This document shows, piece by piece, positions 39,480 to 48,153 of a DNA stretch of 64,000 nucleotides; the first letter of the stretch is position 1, and each line of letters starts with the position of its first letter. A model generated the notes under the pieces. It was not told the origin of the DNA and made no database searches. It was given only the letters and a program-made list of their open reading frames with translations. The translations under genes were made by a program, and so were the position numbers. The DNA comes from Bacteroidetes bacterium 43-16 (GTDB lineage: Bacteria; Bacteroidota; Bacteroidia; Chitinophagales; Chitinophagaceae): the NCBI GenBank assembly GCA_001897525.1, contig MKTB01000015.1, forward strand, positions 62,001-126,000, read 5' to 3'.

Positions 39480-40250
39480 ATGAAGCAAGTACTTTTAGTA
39501 ATGACGATGGCATTCCTGGGACAATCGCTCCAGGCACAGGTACCTAAGCCCCTGATCGGGAAAACATTTTACAATGCCGACAAATGGAATATGGACCCAC
39601 GGTTTGGTGGTGTACCTACCGTTAAATTCACCGGTGCGCATACAGCCGCTGTTAAGAAAGGCGATATTATGGAAAATGCCAAAGTACGTCTTTATAAAAA
39701 AGGATTTATCACCACTACTGATCATAGAAAAATATCAGACACCTTTCAATTTGATGTAATGCCCACTAAAGCCTCAAAAGCTGATGGCTATGAAATGAAA
39801 GACCAGTATGGACAAATATGGACCACGCGCTTCTCTGCATCTGTAGATGGTACAGGTCTGAAAGCCTATCCTGCAGCTAAATCCGGCTATGTACGCAATG
39901 TGATTACATTGCCCAAAAGAACCAATGAAGAACTGTATAAAGTGGAACTATATGCCGGGGTGTTCAAGGAAGTGGATTGCAACAGCTACTCCATGCTGGG
40001 CGTTATCGAAGAAAAAGTGCTGGATGGCTATGGCTATACCTACTATAATGTAAAAACAGAAGAAAAATTGATGGGTACTATGCGCGGCTGCCTGGATGGG
40101 GTAAAGACCACAAAATTCATTCCGGCACAACCGATCATCATCCGGTACAACAGTAATGCCCCCATCGTGATCTATTCACCCAAAGATGTACAGATCAGGT
40201 ATAAGGTGTATAGCACCAATGACCAATGGGAGATCGGGAGACCACAATAA
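39480..40250 (+). CDS. Ecotin-type serine protease inhibitor with N-terminal extension
   Basis: The 256-residue protein has a signal peptide (to about 20, QAQ), about 105 residues of unrecognised sequence, then an ecotin domain (about 128-250). Matches to ecotin include LKAYPAAKSGYVRNVI, YKVELYAGVFKEVDCN, DGYGYTYYNV, IIRYNSNAPIVIYSPKDV and IRYKVY. The two ecotin cysteines align with Cys167 and Cys204, and the reactive loop T-M-R-G-C places Met201 at P1, as in E. coli ecotin, with Arg202 at P1-prime. It should inhibit trypsin-fold proteases in the periplasm. The extension is unusual; E. coli ecotin starts almost directly with this domain. It is monocistronic. Confidence 0.85.
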   Translation: MKQVLLVMTMAFLGQSLQAQVPKPLIGKTFYNADKWNMDPRFGGVPTVKFTGAHTAAVKKGDIMENAKVRLYKKGFITTTDHRKISDTFQFDVMPTKASKADGYEMKDQYGQIWTTRFSASVDGTGLKAYPAAKSGYVRNVITLPKRTNEELYKVELYAGVFKEVDCNSYSMLGVIEEKVLDGYGYTYYNVKTEEKLMGTMRGCLDGVKTTKFIPAQPIIIRYNSNAPIVIYSPKDVQIRYKVYSTNDQWEIGRPQ

Positions 40251-40311: not shown

Positions 40312-40346
40312 CATCCTTACTGTTCCAAAAACAGTGCCCAACCAGA

Positions 40347-40406
40347 TTGTCATACCGCGGTAAAAGTATTGTCATAAATTCAATCATGACATAAAATGAC
40401 AATACT
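40347..40406. promoter_or_regulatory. Candidate operator array: four TTGTCAT-like motifs
   Basis: TTGTCAT occurs at 40347-40353 and 40369-40375 (22 bases apart). Its inverse occurs as ATGACAT at 40386-40392 and ATGACAA at 40396-40402 (10 bases apart). The second and fourth copies lie in an 11-bp perfect inverted repeat, AGTATTGTCAT (40365-40375) with ATGACAATACT (40396-40406). The array ends seven bases before a TACATTCG -7-like element at 40413-40420, so a bound protein would cover the promoter. No known regulator family is recognised. Confidence 0.6.
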
Positions 40407-40412
40407 CTTAAA

Positions 40413-40420
40413 TACATTCG
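40413..40420 (+). promoter_or_regulatory. Possible -7 element of the CotH/ApbE operon (TACATTCG)
   Basis: TACATTCG differs from TAnnTTTG at one base and lies just downstream of the inverted-repeat array. An alternative is TGAATTTG at 40451-40458, nearer the start codon. Confidence 0.4.
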
Positions 40421-40475
40421 CAGCCAATTTATAACATTAATTTAATCTGCTGAATTTGTAATGGTACCGCATTGT

Positions 40476-42008
40476 ATGCTGCGCAAGCTCTCCCTGTTGC
40501 TCACAGGATTTTTCTTATTCCTCAATAGTTTCAATACCCATGCCCAGGATATTTTCGACAGCAGCCGGCTGCACGAGATCCGTATCACTTTCGCCCGGGA
40601 TAACTGGTTCGATATACTGAGTCAATACTACGAGGAAAGTAATTTTACGGATGATAAGAAAACACTGAAAGCGAAAATGCAGGTAGATGCCGTCAGCCTT
40701 CCCGAAGACATCAGCATCCGCTTCAAAGGAGTCTACTCTTACCAGGGCTTCCCCGGGAAAAAGAAACCCTTCCGCCTGAATGTGGGCAAATATGATAAAG
40801 CACAAACCCTGAACGGCACTAAAAAATTCAACCTGCACAACCTTGCAGGAGACCCCTCTTTTTTAAGAGAATTTATTGCTTACGATTTCCTGCGTTTCCA
40901 GGGCATTCCTGCCTCCAGAACGGCTTTCACTAAATTGTACATTAACGACAGCTATTGGGGTTGTTATCTCATCGTTGAAGAACCCGAAGACGATTTCTTT
41001 TTACAACAAAATTTCAATACCGACAAGGGCAACCTGTTTGAAGCAGACACCACCACGCAACTGGCCTGGAATGGCAAGCAGGCAAAAGATTATCCCGAAA
41101 TAAAACTTCAAACCAAAGAGCAGGCTGATTCCTGGAAAGCACTGATCCATTGGCTCGACCTGATCAACAACAACTATCAATACAATTTTCAACAGGAACT
41201 TAATACCCGTTTCGATATCCCGGGATTTCTGAAGGCCCTATCAACCGATATTTTCATCGACAACTGGGACTCCTACGCAGCCAATGGCAGGAACTTCTTC
41301 ATTTACGAAAACCCTTTAACACAAAAGCTGAGCTGGATCCCCTGGGACTATAACCTGTCCTTCTGGGAGAAAAACCTGCCGCCCTTCCCACAGAACGAAA
41401 ATCATAAAATGCGCCCGCTGATCTGGAGATTTTATGAAAACAGTTACCTCAAAAGCCAATACCTTAAAAGTATATGTGCCCTGATCAGCGAAGCTGCCGT
41501 TCATTATCCACTGGCGCAGAACATAGAGAAGGCGCAAAACCTTATCAAAGAAGCCGTAGCCGCAGACCCTAATAAATTCTACACTTACGAGGAGTTCCTG
41601 GATAATGCTTATAAAGCCGTTACCGTGAAAATGCTGCGTGGAGGCGCTTTAAAAGACATTTACCTGCCGGGCATTACAGAGCATTGGAAAAAACGGAAGA
41701 ATAATCTCCGGAAAGAAGCCATGAGCCTGGGTTGTGACTGCGATGCAATAAATACCAACAAGGAAACGCTCATCCTGGATATCTTCCCCAACCCGGTGGC
41801 AGACAGGCTTGGCATTTATATAGAAAACGATATTCATCAACTGGATTACCGCATTTTGAGCACAAATGCGCAAACAGTAAAATCGGCTACGATCAGCTTG
41901 AGCAATGGATTAGCCCATATTGATTGTACCGGGCTTCCGGCCGGCTATTACCTGATCCGGTTTTCAGCTACTACACTTCAAAAAACAATCCCTTTTATTA
42001 AACTATAA
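40476..42008 (+). CDS. CotH kinase-like protein with T9SS sorting domain
   Basis: The protein is 510 residues counted from the ATG at 40476, which gives a clean signal peptide (MLRKLSLLLTGFFLF..., cleavage near THAQ); the ATG at 40461 adds five residues. The CotH domain (about 20-400) includes RFKGVYSYQGFPGKKKPFRLN, KFNLHNLAGDPSFLREFIAYD, YLIVEEPEDDFF, the DNWDSYAANGRNFFIY block and IPWDYNLSFW, which carry the atypical-kinase residues known from spore-coat CotH. The last about 75 residues are a T9SS domain (DIFPNPVADRL, GYYLIRF). First gene of a six-gene unit; the next starts five bases after its stop. Confidence 0.9.
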   Translation: MLRKLSLLLTGFFLFLNSFNTHAQDIFDSSRLHEIRITFARDNWFDILSQYYEESNFTDDKKTLKAKMQVDAVSLPEDISIRFKGVYSYQGFPGKKKPFRLNVGKYDKAQTLNGTKKFNLHNLAGDPSFLREFIAYDFLRFQGIPASRTAFTKLYINDSYWGCYLIVEEPEDDFFLQQNFNTDKGNLFEADTTTQLAWNGKQAKDYPEIKLQTKEQADSWKALIHWLDLINNNYQYNFQQELNTRFDIPGFLKALSTDIFIDNWDSYAANGRNFFIYENPLTQKLSWIPWDYNLSFWEKNLPPFPQNENHKMRPLIWRFYENSYLKSQYLKSICALISEAAVHYPLAQNIEKAQNLIKEAVAADPNKFYTYEEFLDNAYKAVTVKMLRGGALKDIYLPGITEHWKKRKNNLRKEAMSLGCDCDAINTNKETLILDIFPNPVADRLGIYIENDIHQLDYRILSTNAQTVKSATISLSNGLAHIDCTGLPAGYYLIRFSATTLQKTIPFIKL

Positions 42009-42013
42009 TTTTT

Positions 42014-43237
42014 ATGCAACTCAAACAGCTACTCTTCCTGGGCGCATTCAGTCTGCCTCATTTACTTTTTGCACAATGGTCTAAATTATCAACGGGAACG
42101 ACCAAAGACCTTAAAACAATTCATTTCATCAACAATGACCTGGGATTTGCAGCCGGCAAAGATGGAGTACTCATCAAGACCAGTAATGGAGGCAGCAACT
42201 GGACGGCCATCAATACGGCTACCACAAAAGAGATCAAATCGGTCTTTTTCATAGATGCCAATAACGGATGGCTGGTAGGTAAAGATGGCCTCATCAGGAA
42301 AACAACCGATGGAGGTACTACCTGGGCCACACAGACCAGCACGGTACATGAAGACTTCAATGATGTTCATTTTATAAATGCTACACAAGGTGTGATCGTA
42401 GGAAAGAAAGGCAGTGTGCTTATCACCGGCAATGGCGGCAGTACCTGGACCAATAAATCAATAGTTACAGGCGGCGGAAGCGGCAGTGATGATGAAGGTG
42501 CAGATATCTACAAAGTACAAATGCTAAGTACCACAAAAGTATTTGCAGCAGGTAAAGAAGGTTTTTTTGCCGTGAGCAACAATGGCGGTAGCACCTGGAC
42601 GGCCCAGGTATCCGGTACCAGTGCAGACCTGGATGGCATGCACTTTACTTCTGAAAGCAATGGCTATGTATGTTACAAAGCCGGTGGAGTAAGAAAAACA
42701 AATGGCAGCGGTACGTTCACACCGGTTACCGCATCAACCTCCAAAGACCTGGGTAGTATATTCTTCATTTCAGACAGTAAAGGCTGGACAGTAGGTGAAG
42801 AGGGCCGGATCCAGTACACGGAGAACAGTGGCAATACCTGGTCGGCACAAAACCTGAGCACCGTAACGGCAGACCTTAATGATGTTTACTTCCCAAGCGA
42901 GGACAGGGGCTATATTGCAGCAGAAGACGGGATTATTTTAAAATATATCAAAGGCACTACGAACCCTACAGCAATCCGTACAACAGATCTATTAAGCGGA
43001 GTCAACCTTTACCCTAATCCTGCGGTTACAACATTCCAGGTCAAAATGGAGGCGGTATCCGCAAATGAGCCGGTGCATATTGTTGCCTATGATATTACGG
43101 GTAAAATCATTGCTGCATATACCTTCCAGGGTGGATCGGCATTTGAAGTTCCATGCGCCTCCTGGGCAAATGGCACTTACAGTATCCATATCAGCGTAGC
43201 AGACAAAACGGCTCAGCTTAAAGTGCTGAAACAATAA
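42014..43237 (+). CDS. Ycf48/BNR-like seven-bladed propeller with T9SS sorting domain
   Basis: The 407-residue protein has a signal peptide (to about 21, LLFAQ). Residues about 22-320 form about seven repeats of the Ycf48 type: each has a (L/I)xxxxF strand, a G-(F/W)-x-(A/V)-G-(K/E)-x-G turn (GFAAGKDG, GWLVGKDG, GVIVGKKG, GWTVGEEG) and an N-G-G-(S/T)-x-W Asp-box-like end. A T9SS domain closes it (NLYPNPAVTTF, YDITGKIIAAY, GTYSIHI). It is predicted to be a secreted surface propeller. Ycf48 relatives act in assembly of redox complexes in phototrophs; a similar role here is speculation. Confidence 0.88.
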   Translation: MQLKQLLFLGAFSLPHLLFAQWSKLSTGTTKDLKTIHFINNDLGFAAGKDGVLIKTSNGGSNWTAINTATTKEIKSVFFIDANNGWLVGKDGLIRKTTDGGTTWATQTSTVHEDFNDVHFINATQGVIVGKKGSVLITGNGGSTWTNKSIVTGGGSGSDDEGADIYKVQMLSTTKVFAAGKEGFFAVSNNGGSTWTAQVSGTSADLDGMHFTSESNGYVCYKAGGVRKTNGSGTFTPVTASTSKDLGSIFFISDSKGWTVGEEGRIQYTENSGNTWSAQNLSTVTADLNDVYFPSEDRGYIAAEDGIILKYIKGTTNPTAIRTTDLLSGVNLYPNPAVTTFQVKMEAVSANEPVHIVAYDITGKIIAAYTFQGGSAFEVPCASWANGTYSIHISVADKTAQLKVLKQ

Positions 43238-43262
43238 ACTGAATTTTAAAAATTTCCAATCA

Positions 43263-43691
43263 ATGAAGTACTTCATATTACTACTTGCATTCTTTGCCCT
43301 CACGGCATTTAATACGATACCAGACCACAATGCAGAAGCGCTGAGCAAGGATGCCCGTACCGCCAATAAAAATATAGCCGTCTATTTTTCCGGATCAGAC
43401 TGGTGTGTCAACTGTTACGGGTTCAAAAAGAAATACCTCGAGCAGGAATCGATCAAGACGATGCTGGAAAGCGAATTTATCTTTTACAATGCAGACTTTC
43501 CGCAAAGAAAAAAACTGGATAAGGAAGTAGTACTCGTCAATGAAGCCCTGGCTGAAAAGTTAAACCCGGAAGGCATCTTCCCCTTACTGGTGATTGCAGA
43601 TGCTGAACTTAATGTATTAAGCGCTATCGCTCCGGGCGAACAGGCTGATGTGGTGTATAAAAAAATTGAAAGCCAAAAAACAAAGCATTAA
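43263..43691 (+). CDS. Thioredoxin-fold protein, exported
   Basis: The 142-residue protein has a hydrophobic N-terminus (about 1-17) that is probably a signal peptide. The thioredoxin motif WCVNC (Cys48, Cys51) sits after the IAVYFSGSD strand, and the likely cis-Pro is in GIFPLLVIA. It resembles the single-domain thioredoxins found beside ApbE, DUF4266 and DUF3570 genes. It may keep the Cys residues of the DUF4266 protein reduced; this is inference. Its stop is one base from the apbE ATG. Confidence 0.85.
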   Translation: MKYFILLLAFFALTAFNTIPDHNAEALSKDARTANKNIAVYFSGSDWCVNCYGFKKKYLEQESIKTMLESEFIFYNADFPQRKKLDKEVVLVNEALAEKLNPEGIFPLLVIADAELNVLSAIAPGEQADVVYKKIESQKTKH

Positions 43692-43692
43692 G

Positions 43693-44640
43693 ATGAGCCT
43701 TAAAGCCTACCAGGAAAGCAGGCCATCTATGACCTCTTACTTAGAAGTCACTATCGTAGATGGGCTCAATGAAGACACTAAGATCGCTGCACTGATGCAG
43801 GAAGTGTATGCCCTTGCAGATCACTGGATCGGCATCATCTCGGCATGGCAGGAAGGCACAGATCTGTACCAGGTCAATCAACAGGCCGGTATCGCCCCGG
43901 TGCGCGTGCATCCTTCCCTGTTTGAATTGATCCGGCGCAGTATAAAGATATCGGAGTGGACCGATGGTCTTTTTGATGTCACTTTTGCCTCCATAGATAA
44001 AGTGTGGTTTTTTGACAAACCCATGCTTCATTTACCTACTGCCGAATCCATAGCACACTCTGTACGCAATATCAATTACCGGCACATACAGCTCAATGAA
44101 AACGACCAAAGTGTTTTCATTCAAAACAAAGACACTAAAATAGAATTGGGCGCTATAGGTAAAGGTTTTATTGCGAACCAAATGAAGGCTTTCTTAATCG
44201 GGAAAGGCGTACACAGCGGCATTGTAAATGCAGGCGGCGACCTGTGCCTCTGGGGGAAAAATGAAAAGAGCGAAACCTGGAACATTGCCATAGCAGATCC
44301 CGAGAAAAAAGAAAACCTGATCGCCTGGATGCCTGTAGCCTCCGGTGCTGTAGCGACCTCAGGCAGCTATGAACGCTATGCGCTGATCGATGGCAAAAAG
44401 TATGCACACATCATTAATCCCAAAACCGGCTACCCGGTTGAAGGTTTAAAAAGTGTAACCATTTTGTCGCCCGATGTAGAGCTATGTGATGCTATAGCCA
44501 CCTCTGTTTTTCTTTTGGGCAGGGAGCAAGGACTGGACTTCGTGAACCGGCACCAGGAGCTCAAATGCTTTATTGTAGATGAGGCAGGTGTCTTTCATTA
44601 TTCTGACAACCTCAAAAAGCACGACTACACTTATTCTTAA
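43693..44640 (+). CDS. apbE: FAD:protein FMN transferase (ApbE family)
   Basis: The 315 residues are counted from ATG 43693. Family motifs are present: ISAWQEGTDLYQVN near the N-terminus, ELGAIGKGFIANQM, GIVNAGGDLCLWG, VASGAVATSGSYERY, AHIINPKTGYPVEG and the metal-binding CDAIATSVFLLG. ApbE moves FMN from FAD onto a Ser or Thr of a target protein. Most bacterial ApbEs are exported, but no signal peptide or lipobox is visible here even with the longer start at 43648, so it may act inside the cell. Neighbours suggest its target belongs to this operon. Confidence 0.93.
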   Translation: MSLKAYQESRPSMTSYLEVTIVDGLNEDTKIAALMQEVYALADHWIGIISAWQEGTDLYQVNQQAGIAPVRVHPSLFELIRRSIKISEWTDGLFDVTFASIDKVWFFDKPMLHLPTAESIAHSVRNINYRHIQLNENDQSVFIQNKDTKIELGAIGKGFIANQMKAFLIGKGVHSGIVNAGGDLCLWGKNEKSETWNIAIADPEKKENLIAWMPVASGAVATSGSYERYALIDGKKYAHIINPKTGYPVEGLKSVTILSPDVELCDAIATSVFLLGREQGLDFVNRHQELKCFIVDEAGVFHYSDNLKKHDYTYS

Positions 44641-44655
44641 ACCAATTTAAACGCA

Positions 44656-44877
44656 ATGAAAATAAAATACTTCCTGATTAGCGGTATAGGACTTATCGCT
44701 TTAGGCATCAGCTCCTGCAGTACGGTGAAGCCTTACCAGAAGCAATACCTGAATGATCATTATATGCAGACCAATTCATTGCCCAATGAAAAGCTCGAGT
44801 CTGAAACGGAAAGCTACAGAGAGGGCATGATGGGCGGCACCGACGGGAAAGCCGGGGGCGGTTGCGGCTGTAACTAA
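44656..44877 (+). CDS. DUF4266 lipoprotein
   Basis: The 73-residue protein has a lipobox ISSC (Cys21), the family opening VKPYQKQYLND, the YREGMMGGTDG segment and the characteristic Gly-rich end GGGCGCN with Cys70 and Cys72. DUF4266 proteins are almost always next to DUF3570 barrels; their role is unknown. The paired Cys at the very C-terminus could bind metal or exchange thiols with the thioredoxin encoded two genes upstream. Confidence 0.92.
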   Translation: MKIKYFLISGIGLIALGISSCSTVKPYQKQYLNDHYMQTNSLPNEKLESETESYREGMMGGTDGKAGGGCGCN

Positions 44878-44909
44878 TTTAAATTACTGAATCCTGTAAA
44901 CAATATAAA

Positions 44910-46427
44910 ATGGGCATCATTATCACCCTTCTACTCATGTTATCGCTGGTACTGTTTTCCTTCGGGAAAACGGCTACAGCACAGACTGCGCCTCCTGAAG
45001 AAAAGCGACCCACAACCATCAGCCTGCTGACGAATTATTACGAGCAGGATGGTGAGCATGGCGCGGTCAATGGCGGCATCGGCTCCCAGGAGCTGGAAAG
45101 CACGACACAAGAAGCACATATCTATATCCCCAAACATGAACTATCGGGCATAAAAGTCAACCTGGGTATTGACCACTTTACTTCGGAGTCTTTAAGATTT
45201 ATCGACAAGTACAAAACTTCTGCATCAGCAGCACAAGGTAATGTGTCCGGCGATGAAACCCGTTACTACACCAGCTTTGGCTATGATTTCGGCAACAAGA
45301 AAAAGAAAACGATCACTTCATTGGGTCTGGGCTACTCCCAGGAGTATGATGTAAAATCTTACAGTGCCAATTTCGGATGGCTCAAAGACATTCCTAAAAC
45401 CAACCTGCAATACCAGCTCGGGCTGAGCTTTGTTGCAGACCGCTGGTTGCTGATCTACCCGGGAGAGTTCCGTACACAGATCATGGCTGCCGAGCAAGAG
45501 GGTAACAGTGGCGGTAACTCCGGTGGTAATTCGGGAGGAAACAGCGGTGGGGGCCATTCAGGCGGAGGCACATCTGGTGGGGGCACTTCCGGTGGTGGAA
45601 ACAGTGGCGGTTCTTCCGGAGATAAACCCGGCGCTTACTATGGCGACGACATCCTCCTGAGCGGCAGTACGGGTGCGAGTGGCTATGACAGCACCTACAA
45701 CCAGGTCCCGGCAGGCTATGCAAGCCCTATACCTGTTGAAGGTAAGACGGTGACCAAAGATGGTAAAACTTATCCTGTAGACTGGCGCTACTCTGTAAAC
45801 CTGAGCAATAAATTGAACTATGTGATCAACCAGAAAATGAATGGTGCAACAGGACTGGATCTCACTTATCAATCGGGCTTATTATCCACGCCTTTTTACC
45901 GCGTTTACTTTAATGATGGTGTAACGAACGAGCTGGACAAAGAAGTAAGGATAGAAAAACTACCGCGGCAAAGATGGCGTGCAGCGCTTTATGGGCGTTA
46001 CAACTATCATTTCCATACCAACATAGTGTTAAGGACCATGGCAAGGGTATATGCAGACAACTGGGGTGTAAGCGGCCTTACCGCATCTGTAGAGCTGCCG
46101 GTCAAGTTGAACAATGCGATCTCTTTAATACCTTTCTACCGCGTAGCGGTACAGCAGGGTTCTAAATATTTTGCGCCTTATGCAGAACACCTGTTTAGCC
46201 CGGGAAGCTTTTACACCAGCGACTATGACCTTTCCAGCTTTACCAGTCATAAGGCAGGCGGAGCTATCAGGCTCTCCCCTTTCCGCCCTATAGCAGGTAT
46301 AAAGGACGAAGAGAATACGGGCTATGTCTTTAGCTTGGCATCAGCCTCTTTCCGCTATGCCTATTATACCCGCACTGATGGCTTCCAGGCACATTCATTC
46401 AGCCTCGAACTAAATTTCAACTTTTAA
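44910..46427 (+). CDS. DUF3570 outer-membrane barrel with Gly/Ser-rich insertion
   Basis: The 505-residue protein has a signal peptide (to about 25, TATAQ) and a DUF3570 barrel that starts TISLLTNYYEQDGEHGAV and ends in an aromatic strand (AHSFSLELNFNF). A low-complexity GGNS/GGGTS segment at residues about 198-238 lies between barrel strands. Just after it comes S-T-G-A-S (253-257), which fits the loose (S/T)GA(S/T) core of ApbE flavinylation sites; whether it is modified is unknown. Last gene of the operon, followed by a terminator. Confidence 0.9.
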   Translation: MGIIITLLLMLSLVLFSFGKTATAQTAPPEEKRPTTISLLTNYYEQDGEHGAVNGGIGSQELESTTQEAHIYIPKHELSGIKVNLGIDHFTSESLRFIDKYKTSASAAQGNVSGDETRYYTSFGYDFGNKKKKTITSLGLGYSQEYDVKSYSANFGWLKDIPKTNLQYQLGLSFVADRWLLIYPGEFRTQIMAAEQEGNSGGNSGGNSGGNSGGGHSGGGTSGGGTSGGGNSGGSSGDKPGAYYGDDILLSGSTGASGYDSTYNQVPAGYASPIPVEGKTVTKDGKTYPVDWRYSVNLSNKLNYVINQKMNGATGLDLTYQSGLLSTPFYRVYFNDGVTNELDKEVRIEKLPRQRWRAALYGRYNYHFHTNIVLRTMARVYADNWGVSGLTASVELPVKLNNAISLIPFYRVAVQQGSKYFAPYAEHLFSPGSFYTSDYDLSSFTSHKAGGAIRLSPFRPIAGIKDEENTGYVFSLASASFRYAYYTRTDGFQAHSFSLELNFNF

Positions 46428-46434
46428 TGAATCA

Positions 46435-46463
46435 AAAAATGCAGCTCCCTGAGCTGCATTTTT
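46435..46463. terminator. Bidirectional terminator closing the CotH/ApbE operon
   Basis: AAAAATGCAGCTC... pairs as ATGCAGCTC-CCT-GAGCTGCAT with A6 and T5 flanks, between convergent genes. Confidence 0.88.
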
Positions 46464-46465
46464 CA

Positions 46466-48103
46466 TTATAGATTATTGATGACCCTGCCTTTGGGGTACT
46501 TCACCGAATAAGAGAATTTCACTTTCCTGATCTCGCCCGGCTTAAGGTTCAGTCGCCAGGTCACTACACCATTCTCTGTATTCAGGCTGGCATTGTCTGC
46601 ACTGATGAGCTCAATCTCTACTGCATTATCAGTAGAAGTAGGGATCTGGTCCTTTAACAGCAATTCTATTTTCTCTGACTTGCCGTTCTTCACCGTAAGT
46701 TCATAGACAAAGGTTTGTTTCTTCGCAGCGCCCAGGTTTTTGATCCCGCTTTGTTCCGACAGTTTTTCTCTTTTAACCGTGATCCGCTTATCTCTTCCTA
46801 TGCTCACATTGATCGTATCTTCTGTGGAGTAAGGATTCAGGAATGTTTTCCCCACAAATTTATTTTCAAACAAGATATTGGCAGGTCCGGGAATCAGGTT
46901 CAGGCTTTCTATATCGGTCAACTCTGCCAGTAAGAACACATCAGGATCTAAGCGCGGTACCGCATAATGTTTGTAAACCGTATTCAATTGATGGGTTTGT
47001 AAAGCGACCGCATGCACTTTATAGTTGGACGCAATCGTGTAAGGAAGGTCAATATTAAAGGTGGTGGCTACAGGGCTTTCCTGTGTGCTCACATAGTCGT
47101 CCAGGCTCTTTGCAGGTTTGGCCTTCATCCTGTAGTCCGACTCTGAGGCTTGTATGGTATTGACCGTAGCCTGTTCTTTTTCCATACTTACCTGGCTTCT
47201 TTGTAAAGCCGGCTGACCGAATCTCAGGAACCAGGTGGATAAAACAGGGGCTATATTCCCTATCGTAGGATTACCTGTAGACAGCGATAGCTTCACCTTA
47301 TTCCAGTCCAGCCCTGTATTCTGCTGTACATTGGCCTTATACACCAGGTTGATCGGCTGGTTCAGGTTATCAGCTTTGATATCATAAGCTGCAGACCAGG
47401 TAGCGGCAGTGCTCAGGTAAGAGATCTGTATAGCACCATTAACCGCAGTATTGGCCATCAACTGGATTTTAAGCTGCCCGCGTGTTGCAGCAATCTGCGG
47501 CTGCGATTTACCGCTCAGCGCTGCAAAGGCTGCATTCAGCTGCCTTATCTTATCATTAATATCCCGCTCCGCCTGTCTTTGCTCGGAAAGTTTATCTCTT
47601 AATTCGATTTGCTTCACCAGGTACATTTCTGAGAGCTTAGCCAGTTCGGCCGCATTCACCCCATTCTGCGGGCTGCTGATCACCTGGTTTTGCTCCAGCA
47701 ATGCTAAGGACTTATCATAAGCAGCAATCCTGTTCATGACTTTTTGCAGGTTGGCCTGCGCTTCTTTTAATTCACTGCTGATCTTCTTTTGTTCGGGATT
47801 GTTCAGTGCCGTATCCTGCTGCCTGGTCTCCACTTCCTGGTCCCTGTTTACCAGTACCGACAAAACGGTCATATTGGAAGGTGTGCTTACCTGTATGGTA
47901 TTTTCATCGATCGTAGCCGCTACATTATCTATAATGATCTCTGTAGTGCCGGCAGGTATAGTAACTTTCGCCGTATGACTTAATGAAGCCCCGGCCTTAT
48001 ACACCATCACTTCTTCCAGCTGCGCGTCAAATCGTGGTAGCTGCTGGGCACTTACATTATATACTGCCAGGGTGCAATAAAGTGCCAATAGGATCTTTCT
48101 CAT
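46466..48103 (-). CDS. DUF4139 (MuiA-like) secreted protein
   Basis: The protein is 545 residues from the ATG at 48103, which gives a signal peptide (MRKILLALYC..., NVSAQ). The in-frame ATG at 48139 is rejected, since the -7 box at 48124-48131 lies between the two. DUF4140 sequence (FDAQLEEVMVYKAGASLSHTAKVTIPAGTTEIII) is followed by a coiled coil (about 95-195) and DUF4139 (about 205-545; LSTAATWSAAYDIKAD, VKLSLSTGNP). The family is called mucoidy-inhibitor A; the mechanism is unknown. Confidence 0.9.
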   Translation of the reverse strand: MRKILLALYCTLAVYNVSAQQLPRFDAQLEEVMVYKAGASLSHTAKVTIPAGTTEIIIDNVAATIDENTIQVSTPSNMTVLSVLVNRDQEVETRQQDTALNNPEQKKISSELKEAQANLQKVMNRIAAYDKSLALLEQNQVISSPQNGVNAAELAKLSEMYLVKQIELRDKLSEQRQAERDINDKIRQLNAAFAALSGKSQPQIAATRGQLKIQLMANTAVNGAIQISYLSTAATWSAAYDIKADNLNQPINLVYKANVQQNTGLDWNKVKLSLSTGNPTIGNIAPVLSTWFLRFGQPALQRSQVSMEKEQATVNTIQASESDYRMKAKPAKSLDDYVSTQESPVATTFNIDLPYTIASNYKVHAVALQTHQLNTVYKHYAVPRLDPDVFLLAELTDIESLNLIPGPANILFENKFVGKTFLNPYSTEDTINVSIGRDKRITVKREKLSEQSGIKNLGAAKKQTFVYELTVKNGKSEKIELLLKDQIPTSTDNAVEIELISADNASLNTENGVVTWRLNLKPGEIRKVKFSYSVKYPKGRVINNL

Positions 48104-48123
48104 AAATCTGTTTTTGCTTTTTA

Positions 48124-48153
48124 CAAATGTAAATCGCAAAAAAGAGGGGCAAA
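48124..48153 (-). promoter_or_regulatory. Promoter of the DUF4139 gene (TTTG-N18-TACATTTG)
   Basis: On the minus strand TTTG (48150-48153) and TACATTTG (48124-48131) are 18 bases apart. Confidence 0.65.

Follow-up and report, generated by a model that had tools for sequence, protein, structure and literature searches.

What are two proteins bound for the cell surface doing at the head of a complete four-gene flavin system? The question is raised by a six-gene operon in a 64,000-nucleotide (nt) stretch of the genome of Bacteroidetes bacterium 43-16 (contig MKTB01000015.1, positions 62,001 to 126,000), referred to here as the window. The operon occupies positions 40461-46427 of the plus strand; its genes follow the order CotH, Ycf48-like, thioredoxin-like, ApbE, DUF4266 and DUF3570, with intergenic gaps of 5, 25, 1, 15 and 32 nt, and it is bracketed by an operator-like repeat on the 5' side and a strong terminator on the 3' side. 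We propose that the operon is probably a cell-surface variant of the known electron-transfer system of DsbD, thioredoxin, DUF4266 and flavinylated DUF3570. The core is of a known kind; what is new is the surface variant, its recurrent propeller, a CotH protein seen beside it in one genus only, and the conservation of the whole as a cassette together with an upstream element.

Domains were called with Pfam at curated cut-offs and with NCBI models. All six proteins exceed their Pfam cut-offs: CotH with 178 bits (PF08757), the Ycf48-like protein with 97 (PF14870), the thioredoxin-like protein with 34 (PF13899), ApbE with 252 (PF02424, E-value 6.7e-75), DUF4266 with 60 (PF14086) and DUF3570 with 69 (PF12094, E-value 5.4e-19). 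An earlier note on this DNA had described six genes with these domains on one strand, separated by 1-32 nt and flanked by an operator-like region and a terminator, and all of this was confirmed. It had also called the core set functionally unexplained, which no longer holds, as flavinylation and a link to DsbD and thioredoxin were published in 2021. That paper, by Meheust et al., describes clusters of thioredoxin, ApbE, DUF4266 and DUF3570 and a covalent flavin on a DUF3570 (PMC8238504); the DUF3570 of Chlorobium luteolum was found experimentally to be flavinylated by its ApbE at two flavinylation-type motifs. The earlier suggestion that ApbE flavinylates a member of the operon has this precedent behind it, with the correction that the carrier is DUF3570. 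The window operon resembles the published "DsbD systems" in its four core genes, its ApbE, the CxC of DUF4266, the thioredoxin-like protein and flavinylation-type motifs in DUF3570. It differs from them in a separate DUF3570 clade, a propeller and a CotH protein with tails of the type IX secretion system (T9SS), a Gly/Ser-rich loop beside the strict motif, and a DsbD encoded outside the operon. The main text of PMC8238504 makes no mention of CotH, Ycf48, T9SS, barrel, propeller or kinase. Within the open-access literature DUF3570 and DUF4266 were found named in that paper only, though other printed work may name them too.

The same six-gene order was found in Edaphocola aurantiacus H2 and Taibaiella sp. 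KBW10, and the six-gene form is present in three of the five genomes examined from the window's genus. The four proteins aligned (CotH, Ycf48-like, ApbE and DUF3570) are 44-76% identical to those of the window, and blastp at E 1e-8 detected no homologous flanking open reading frames of at least 90 amino acids (aa) between the three 20-kb loci. Because the order is shared with two further genomes that lack homologous flanks, the six-gene set is a cassette and more than a chance row. The possibility that CotH and the Ycf48-like gene stand beside the core set in a single strain, raised by the earlier note, is removed by their presence there in three species.

To place the cassette in a broader context, 127 DUF3570 loci were assembled from the DUF4266 matches in 147 relatives, the DUF3570 matches in 396 genomes of the order, and G532, a genome of another order. 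Locus L055 was left out as a copy of L003, and G411, G384, G356, G160, G273, the second contig of G344 and the match of G155 were also left out. The genomes sample the order, class and phylum without covering them in full; many contigs break off close to the set; figures for the 396-genome search cover the places listed, with further weak matches outside them; and the thioredoxin, Ycf48 and CotH profiles were built partly from loci later scanned with them. The DUF4266 profile matched in 41 of the 147 relatives, and the usual neighbourhood has the form thioredoxin-ApbE-DUF4266-DUF3570, with all four genes present in 111 of the 127 loci. The propeller is absent from the same-strand run in 122 of these loci, and CotH in 123. 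The same-strand run includes a VIT1-cluster gene in 7 of the 127 (one representative was checked with Pfam), and at least one of the clusters of extracytoplasmic function (ECF) sigma factors, FecR and TonB-dependent receptors in 8 (one representative of each checked). VIT1 is reported in 25 clusters in PMC8238504, where a link to iron is suggested, and the metal-type neighbours in relatives agree with that link. In L157, L165, L177, L184 and L194, the run that holds the four-gene set also includes, on its 5' side, genes of the ECF sigma, FecR or TonB-dependent receptor clusters; the first four loci have all three, and the representatives were checked in L165. These neighbours suggest surface-signalled control in other families.

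The DUF3570 proteins of the cassette form a clade of their own. A profile built from the three members gives these same sequences 940-1028 bits, and no other place listed in the 396 genomes of the order more than 176. A class sample of 395 genomes contained one further outstanding place, in G532 (264 bits), and nine other genomes of that order yielded no such member. When a four-member profile was applied to a phylum sample of 395 genomes, ten passed E 1e-50, namely the window and nine with no more than 189 bits; the loci of these nine, which lie outside the tree, have no propeller or CotH match within flanks of about 1.5 kb. In a tree of 129 DUF3570 proteins longer than 340 aa, built with a quick method, the three cassette members and G532 constitute one group (Shimodaira-Hasegawa-like approximate likelihood ratio test 100, branch 0.86), and genomes G001, G002 and G003 also carry a canonical DUF3570 paralogue placed elsewhere. 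The G532 operon has the order thioredoxin, ApbE, DUF4266, DUF3570, Ycf48-like, Ycf48-like, DsbD.

The propeller follows this clade: it is present in the operons of all four members, which span two orders, versus 1 of the 123 other loci (L152, where it is the gene before thioredoxin). PF14870, which is independent of our custom profile, scores 99.6, 88.4 and 45.8 bits on the propellers of relatives. This makes the propeller a genuine, recurring partner of the clade. The predicted structure of the window protein comprises seven strand groups in residues 33-312, in support of the seven blades proposed by the earlier note; the top fold match is a seven-bladed designed protein (Z 33.2, root-mean-square deviation (rmsd) 2.1 over 279), and the closest sequence in the PDB is Ycf48 (8am5, 2.5e-22). 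Because its 105.7 bits lie far below the 326-bit cut-off of the Ycf48 equivalog NF010237, it was filed as a Ycf48-like propeller and not as Ycf48. With the photosystem II assembly factor Ycf48/HCF136 it has in common PF14870, the seven-bladed fold and the best PDB sequence match; it differs in falling below the equivalog cut-off, in being T9SS-exported instead of lipid-anchored, and in having no photosynthesis gene in its operon. The mode of anchoring varies, with a T9SS tail in the window's genus and a lipid in two relatives: lipoboxes are seen in both propellers of the G532 operon (locus L141) and in that of L152. For individual proteins, the calls of signal peptides and lipoboxes were made by eye. 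From the likeness to Ycf48 and the constant company of this DUF3570 clade, we infer a role in assembly or docking.

Both the propeller and CotH carry the C-terminal T9SS domain PF18962 (32.1 and 31.9 bits, cut-off 27), and CotH scores 22.5 bits with the NCBI T9SS model TIGR04183, just under its cut-off of 23. The window genome encodes one full-length copy of SprA, and each of the five genomes of the genus has one copy over the cut-off. As the tails occur on both proteins and SprA is present, export of both to the surface by T9SS is supported by sequence.

The predicted structure of DUF3570 has 16 strands by our own count (mean predicted local distance difference test score (pLDDT) 80.3, 49 sequences in the alignment). 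Its fold matches include BamA (9a2o, an integrative model; Z 21.2, rmsd 3.7, 290 residues), 4y25, which we take to be PgaA (Z 21.1, rmsd 3.3, 257 residues), and BcsC (9b8a; Z 17.8, rmsd 4.3, 309 residues), with alignments that run from the first strand of the barrel to the last; the ranking is compatible with further, unlisted families. The model supports the outer-membrane barrel proposed by the earlier note, with 16 strands. In the reference barrels both termini are periplasmic. If the same applies to DUF3570, residues of about 91-115 and 180-286 would be outside loops, since the two loops that carry its motifs come after odd-numbered strands.

The flavinylation motif is given as Dxx[S/T]GA[S/T], with a minor effect of the Asp and about half activity after Gly-to-Ala exchange (PMC12052999). 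The window DUF3570 contains a relaxed form, TSAS, in the first loop and a strict TGAS in the second. Across the 129 DUF3570 proteins the strict motif [ST]GA[ST] occurs 33 times versus 7.5 expected from shuffled proteins, a control applied to the strict motif only, and all occurrences fall within residues 100-275; 26 of the proteins have a strict motif in the first region and 5 have one in the second. The relaxed motif [ST][GSTA]A[ST] is carried by 127 of the 129 proteins in the first region and by 33 in the second. A strict motif as a general rule was rejected, as most relatives carry relaxed forms only.

A window of Gly/Ser-rich composition (at least 22 of 30 residues G, S, T or N) was detected in 3 of the 129 DUF3570 proteins, exactly those encoded beside a T9SS CotH, and in the window protein this loop adjoins the strict motif. 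The scan covered all 129, whereas loops could be parsed in 116 of them, including just one of the three six-gene members. The G532 protein, which has propellers but no CotH in its operon, lacks the stretch. In the DUF3570 proteins of L035 and L207, runs of Asp lie beside Gly, Ser and His inside the outer loop and possibly bind metal.

In CotH itself, D270 and D296 align to two Asp residues of the solved CotH 5jd9 (62.8 bits) and are kept in all three cassette species. The pair in 5jd9 is 23 residues apart, the spacing of D228 and D251 in Bacillus subtilis CotH; the link to these residues is made through the 5jd9 alignment and the equal spacing. Both D228 and D251 are needed for activity, and the known CotH substrates are Ser-rich repeats (PMC7821199). 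As the Asp pair aligns at kinase positions, catalysis by the window protein is possible. It is like the spore-coat kinase in its CotH domain and in the position and spacing of the pair, and unlike it in being a T9SS surface protein, in a Bacteroidota-type genome, with no CotB or CotG in the operon. T9SS CotH proteins beside the flavin set were seen only in the three congeneric genomes. A general companionship was rejected on 20 CotH neighbourhoods from outside the genus (the best CotH matches, several on short contigs), none of which has an ApbE, DUF4266 or DUF3570 match; two of them, L127 and L137, contain a distant Ycf48-like gene on the strand opposite to CotH. The earlier note had joined both T9SS proteins as a surface or assembly arm of the complex: the two differ, in that the propeller recurs with the clade in two orders, whereas CotH was seen beside the set in three congeneric genomes only. 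The association of the Gly/Ser-rich loop with CotH is a lead, not proof, and may reflect one evolutionary event.

On the thiol side, the thioredoxin-like protein is of the Thioredoxin_7/DsbH-like type with its CxxC present as WCVNC, and the Cys tail of DUF4266 noted earlier was recovered as CxC in 122 of 122 profile matches, the tail itself being part of the profile. The nearest solved relatives of ApbE are flavin mononucleotide (FMN) transferases (7esa, 3e-51). DsbD is represented by one copy over the cut-off in each of the five genomes of the genus, on another contig in the window genome, so an electron donor is available; PMC8238504 describes 316 flavinylation clusters from which DsbD is absent. 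In five loci (L056, L077, L158, L209 and L217) thioredoxin and ApbE are fused into one protein of 449-476 aa that has a signal peptide by eye; this suggests an ApbE at work beyond the cytosol in these loci, in contrast to the form that lacks a signal.

These components can be assembled into a path in which DsbD, encoded elsewhere, would pass reducing equivalents to the secreted thioredoxin-like protein, which would hand them to the CxC tail of the DUF4266 lipoprotein and from there to FMN held covalently on the loops of the DUF3570 barrel, where the operon's ApbE would have attached it. The flavin could then reduce an external acceptor, for which an oxidised metal such as Fe(III) is the most plausible candidate. 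On the outer face, the Ycf48-like propeller would serve as the assembly or docking subunit, and CotH would accompany the barrel there and may modify its outer, Gly/Ser-rich loop. The direction of electron flow, the acceptor and the roles of propeller and CotH are parts that we infer. In MtrCAB-type outer-membrane conduits, electrons cross through a barrel by way of multihaem cytochromes; the proposed system shares the idea of crossing at a barrel and would use flavin and thiols instead, with 16 strands in the model. If this is right, flavins sit on the external side of an outer-membrane barrel, a recurrent propeller partner common to two orders is named, and a T9SS-exported CotH protein gains a concrete candidate substrate. 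A bolder version, a surface flavin conduit with its own modification arm, in which the propeller assembles or caps the barrel and CotH covalently modifies the FMN-bearing Gly/Ser loop by phosphoryl or nucleotidyl transfer, appears unlikely to us; it would represent the first kinase-fold enzyme-substrate pair acting on an outer-membrane flavin conduit.

Several observations weigh against the electron-transfer reading. The Pfam scan found neither a metal gene nor DsbD within the window operon. An ATP or other nucleotide donor is not expected outside the cell, which bears on any CotH activity. The six-gene form comes from a single genus, and one evolutionary event may account for all three members. 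The window DUF3570 has one strict motif versus the two reported for ApbE-associated DUF3570 proteins, and residues 206-264 of the barrel model are below pLDDT 50, so the path of this loop is not fixed by the model. At L192 (5480-8053, minus strand, family f12), an 858-aa protein with lamin-tail, chitobiase-C and CotH domains is encoded directly after a DUF3570 whose barrel lacks the Gly/Ser stretch, the one CotH-type protein in a same-strand run among the 123 loci outside the clade, which counts against a simple CotH-to-loop rule. Finally, the ApbE proteins of all three cassette species lack a signal peptide, and by eye the longer start at 43648 in the window provides none either. This poses a topology puzzle, a question that the locus itself raises: how a signal-less ApbE would flavinylate an exported outer-membrane barrel. 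Among 120 ApbE proteins of the loci, a crude hydrophobicity cut placed 94 without and 19 with signal peptides (a few of which look false), while 7 longer than 420 aa were left unjudged; cytosolic ApbEs are known (PMC12052999).

The role of CotH is open to another explanation. It is quite possible that the protein contributes no enzyme activity to the flavin complex, either because it serves for binding at the surface, like the adhesin-like CotH proteins of Mucorales, or because its kinase is dead. An ATP source is not expected at the cell surface and the similarity to the solved CotH is remote, both of which point this way, and L192 has a CotH protein without the loop. Against this, both Asp residues at kinase positions are kept in the three species, and the Gly/Ser-rich loop is confined to the operon partners of CotH. 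That CotH and the propeller together are bystanders, T9SS surface genes joined 5' of a complete flavin system and merely co-regulated with it, would account for the rarity of both across DUF3570 loci and for the CotH neighbourhoods outside the genus that lack the core genes, yet it seems improbable in view of a gene order kept through the divergence described above amid unrelated flanks, and of lipoprotein propellers beside the same clade in another order and beside the canonical set in L152. A different destination for the electrons, namely thiol reduction or repair of surface and periplasmic proteins with the DUF3570 flavin as a relay and no metal involved, is doubtful: the thioredoxin-like protein and the CxC lipoprotein are thiol proteins, and the five fusions and the DsbD within the G532 operon fit such a role, but the outside loops are an odd place for the flavin of a thiol relay, and metal-transport neighbours recur in some relatives. 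The surface electron-transfer variant remains the reading that we consider probable.

The cassette also appears to bring its own control element. An ungapped 75-nt element lies 5' of all three operons with pairwise identities of 56, 51 and 46, versus maxima of 42, 41 and 42 over 300 shuffles per pair, shuffled in blocks of two. It consists of ATTGTCA direct repeats spaced 22 nt, then inverted ATGACA / ATGACAAT, and then a TACATTCG box that resembles a Bacteroidota -7 element; in KBW10 the direct repeats take the form AATGTCA. The region also contains a 15-nt inverted repeat (40361-40375 / 40396-40410, 93% complementary). We read the element as a putative operator and promoter. In whole-genome pattern searches with up to one mismatch it is the sole site found in each of the window genome, E. 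aurantiacus and KBW10; a wider regulon was rejected, as neither pattern gave a second site in the three genomes at this threshold. Two results temper this uniqueness: a backward control pattern gave 0-2 matches per genome in one search and 1-5 per strand in another, and congeneric G001, where no such operon was detected, matches the outer repeat exactly at one place (C1:303878), with a different core. With three mismatches the operator search is at chance level (18 matches vs 22 expected), and the sole exact match is the operon site. A LuxR-type response regulator is encoded directly upstream of the G532 operon (L141:11683-12327, minus strand), a possible clue to the class of regulator.

Table. 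Coordinates of the operon genes and associated elements in the window.
Feature	Position	Strand	Basis and remarks
Conserved operator/promoter element (putative)	40346-40425	+	Repeats and conservation across three operons
CotH kinase-like protein, 515 aa	40461-42008	+	PF08757; T9SS tail; signal peptide by eye
Ycf48-like seven-bladed beta-propeller, 407 aa	42014-43237	+	PF14870; T9SS tail
Thioredoxin-like protein, 142 aa, WCVNC	43263-43691	+	PF13899; signal peptide by eye
ApbE flavin adenine dinucleotide:protein FMN transferase, 315 aa	43693-44640	+	PF02424
DUF4266 lipoprotein, 73 aa, tail GGGCGCN (CxC)	44656-44877	+	PF14086; lipobox by eye
DUF3570 outer-membrane barrel (predicted), 505 aa	44910-46427	+	PF12094; candidate motifs T103-S-A-S106 and T254-G-A-S257
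Gly/Ser-rich stretch of DUF3570 loop, residues 198-237	45501-45620	+	Composition scan
Terminator hairpin, 13-nt perfect stem	46435-46463	+	Inverted repeat, fold energy

A search with PADLOC gave no match for any of the six proteins, and a defence role was rejected. A second core-set copy native to the window genome was likewise rejected, since the DUF4266 place on its contig C2 likely lies on a contig foreign to one of two assemblies: the stretch G000:C2:180000-199500 (L003) matches G033:C66 (L055), from a different genus, with 100% identity across 19,501 nt, and its DUF3570 is not grouped with the paralogues of G001, G002 and G003. One of the two assemblies probably includes a foreign contig (280 kb in G000), the comparison covering the 19,501-nt stretch.

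Upstream of the operon, a plus-strand gene (39480-40250) encodes a C-terminal ecotin domain (a protease inhibitor) behind 126 N-terminal residues and has a terminator-like hairpin on its 3' side, before the operon. Downstream, a minus-strand gene for a DUF4139/DUF4140 (MuiA-family) protein (46466-48139) converges on the operon and ends 2 nt from its terminator. The terminator is a perfect 13-nt hairpin (46435-46447 / 46451-46463) in a region that folds with -18.9 kcal/mol (z -5.0, with 0 of 200 shuffles as good), and it is possibly common to the operon and the converging gene.

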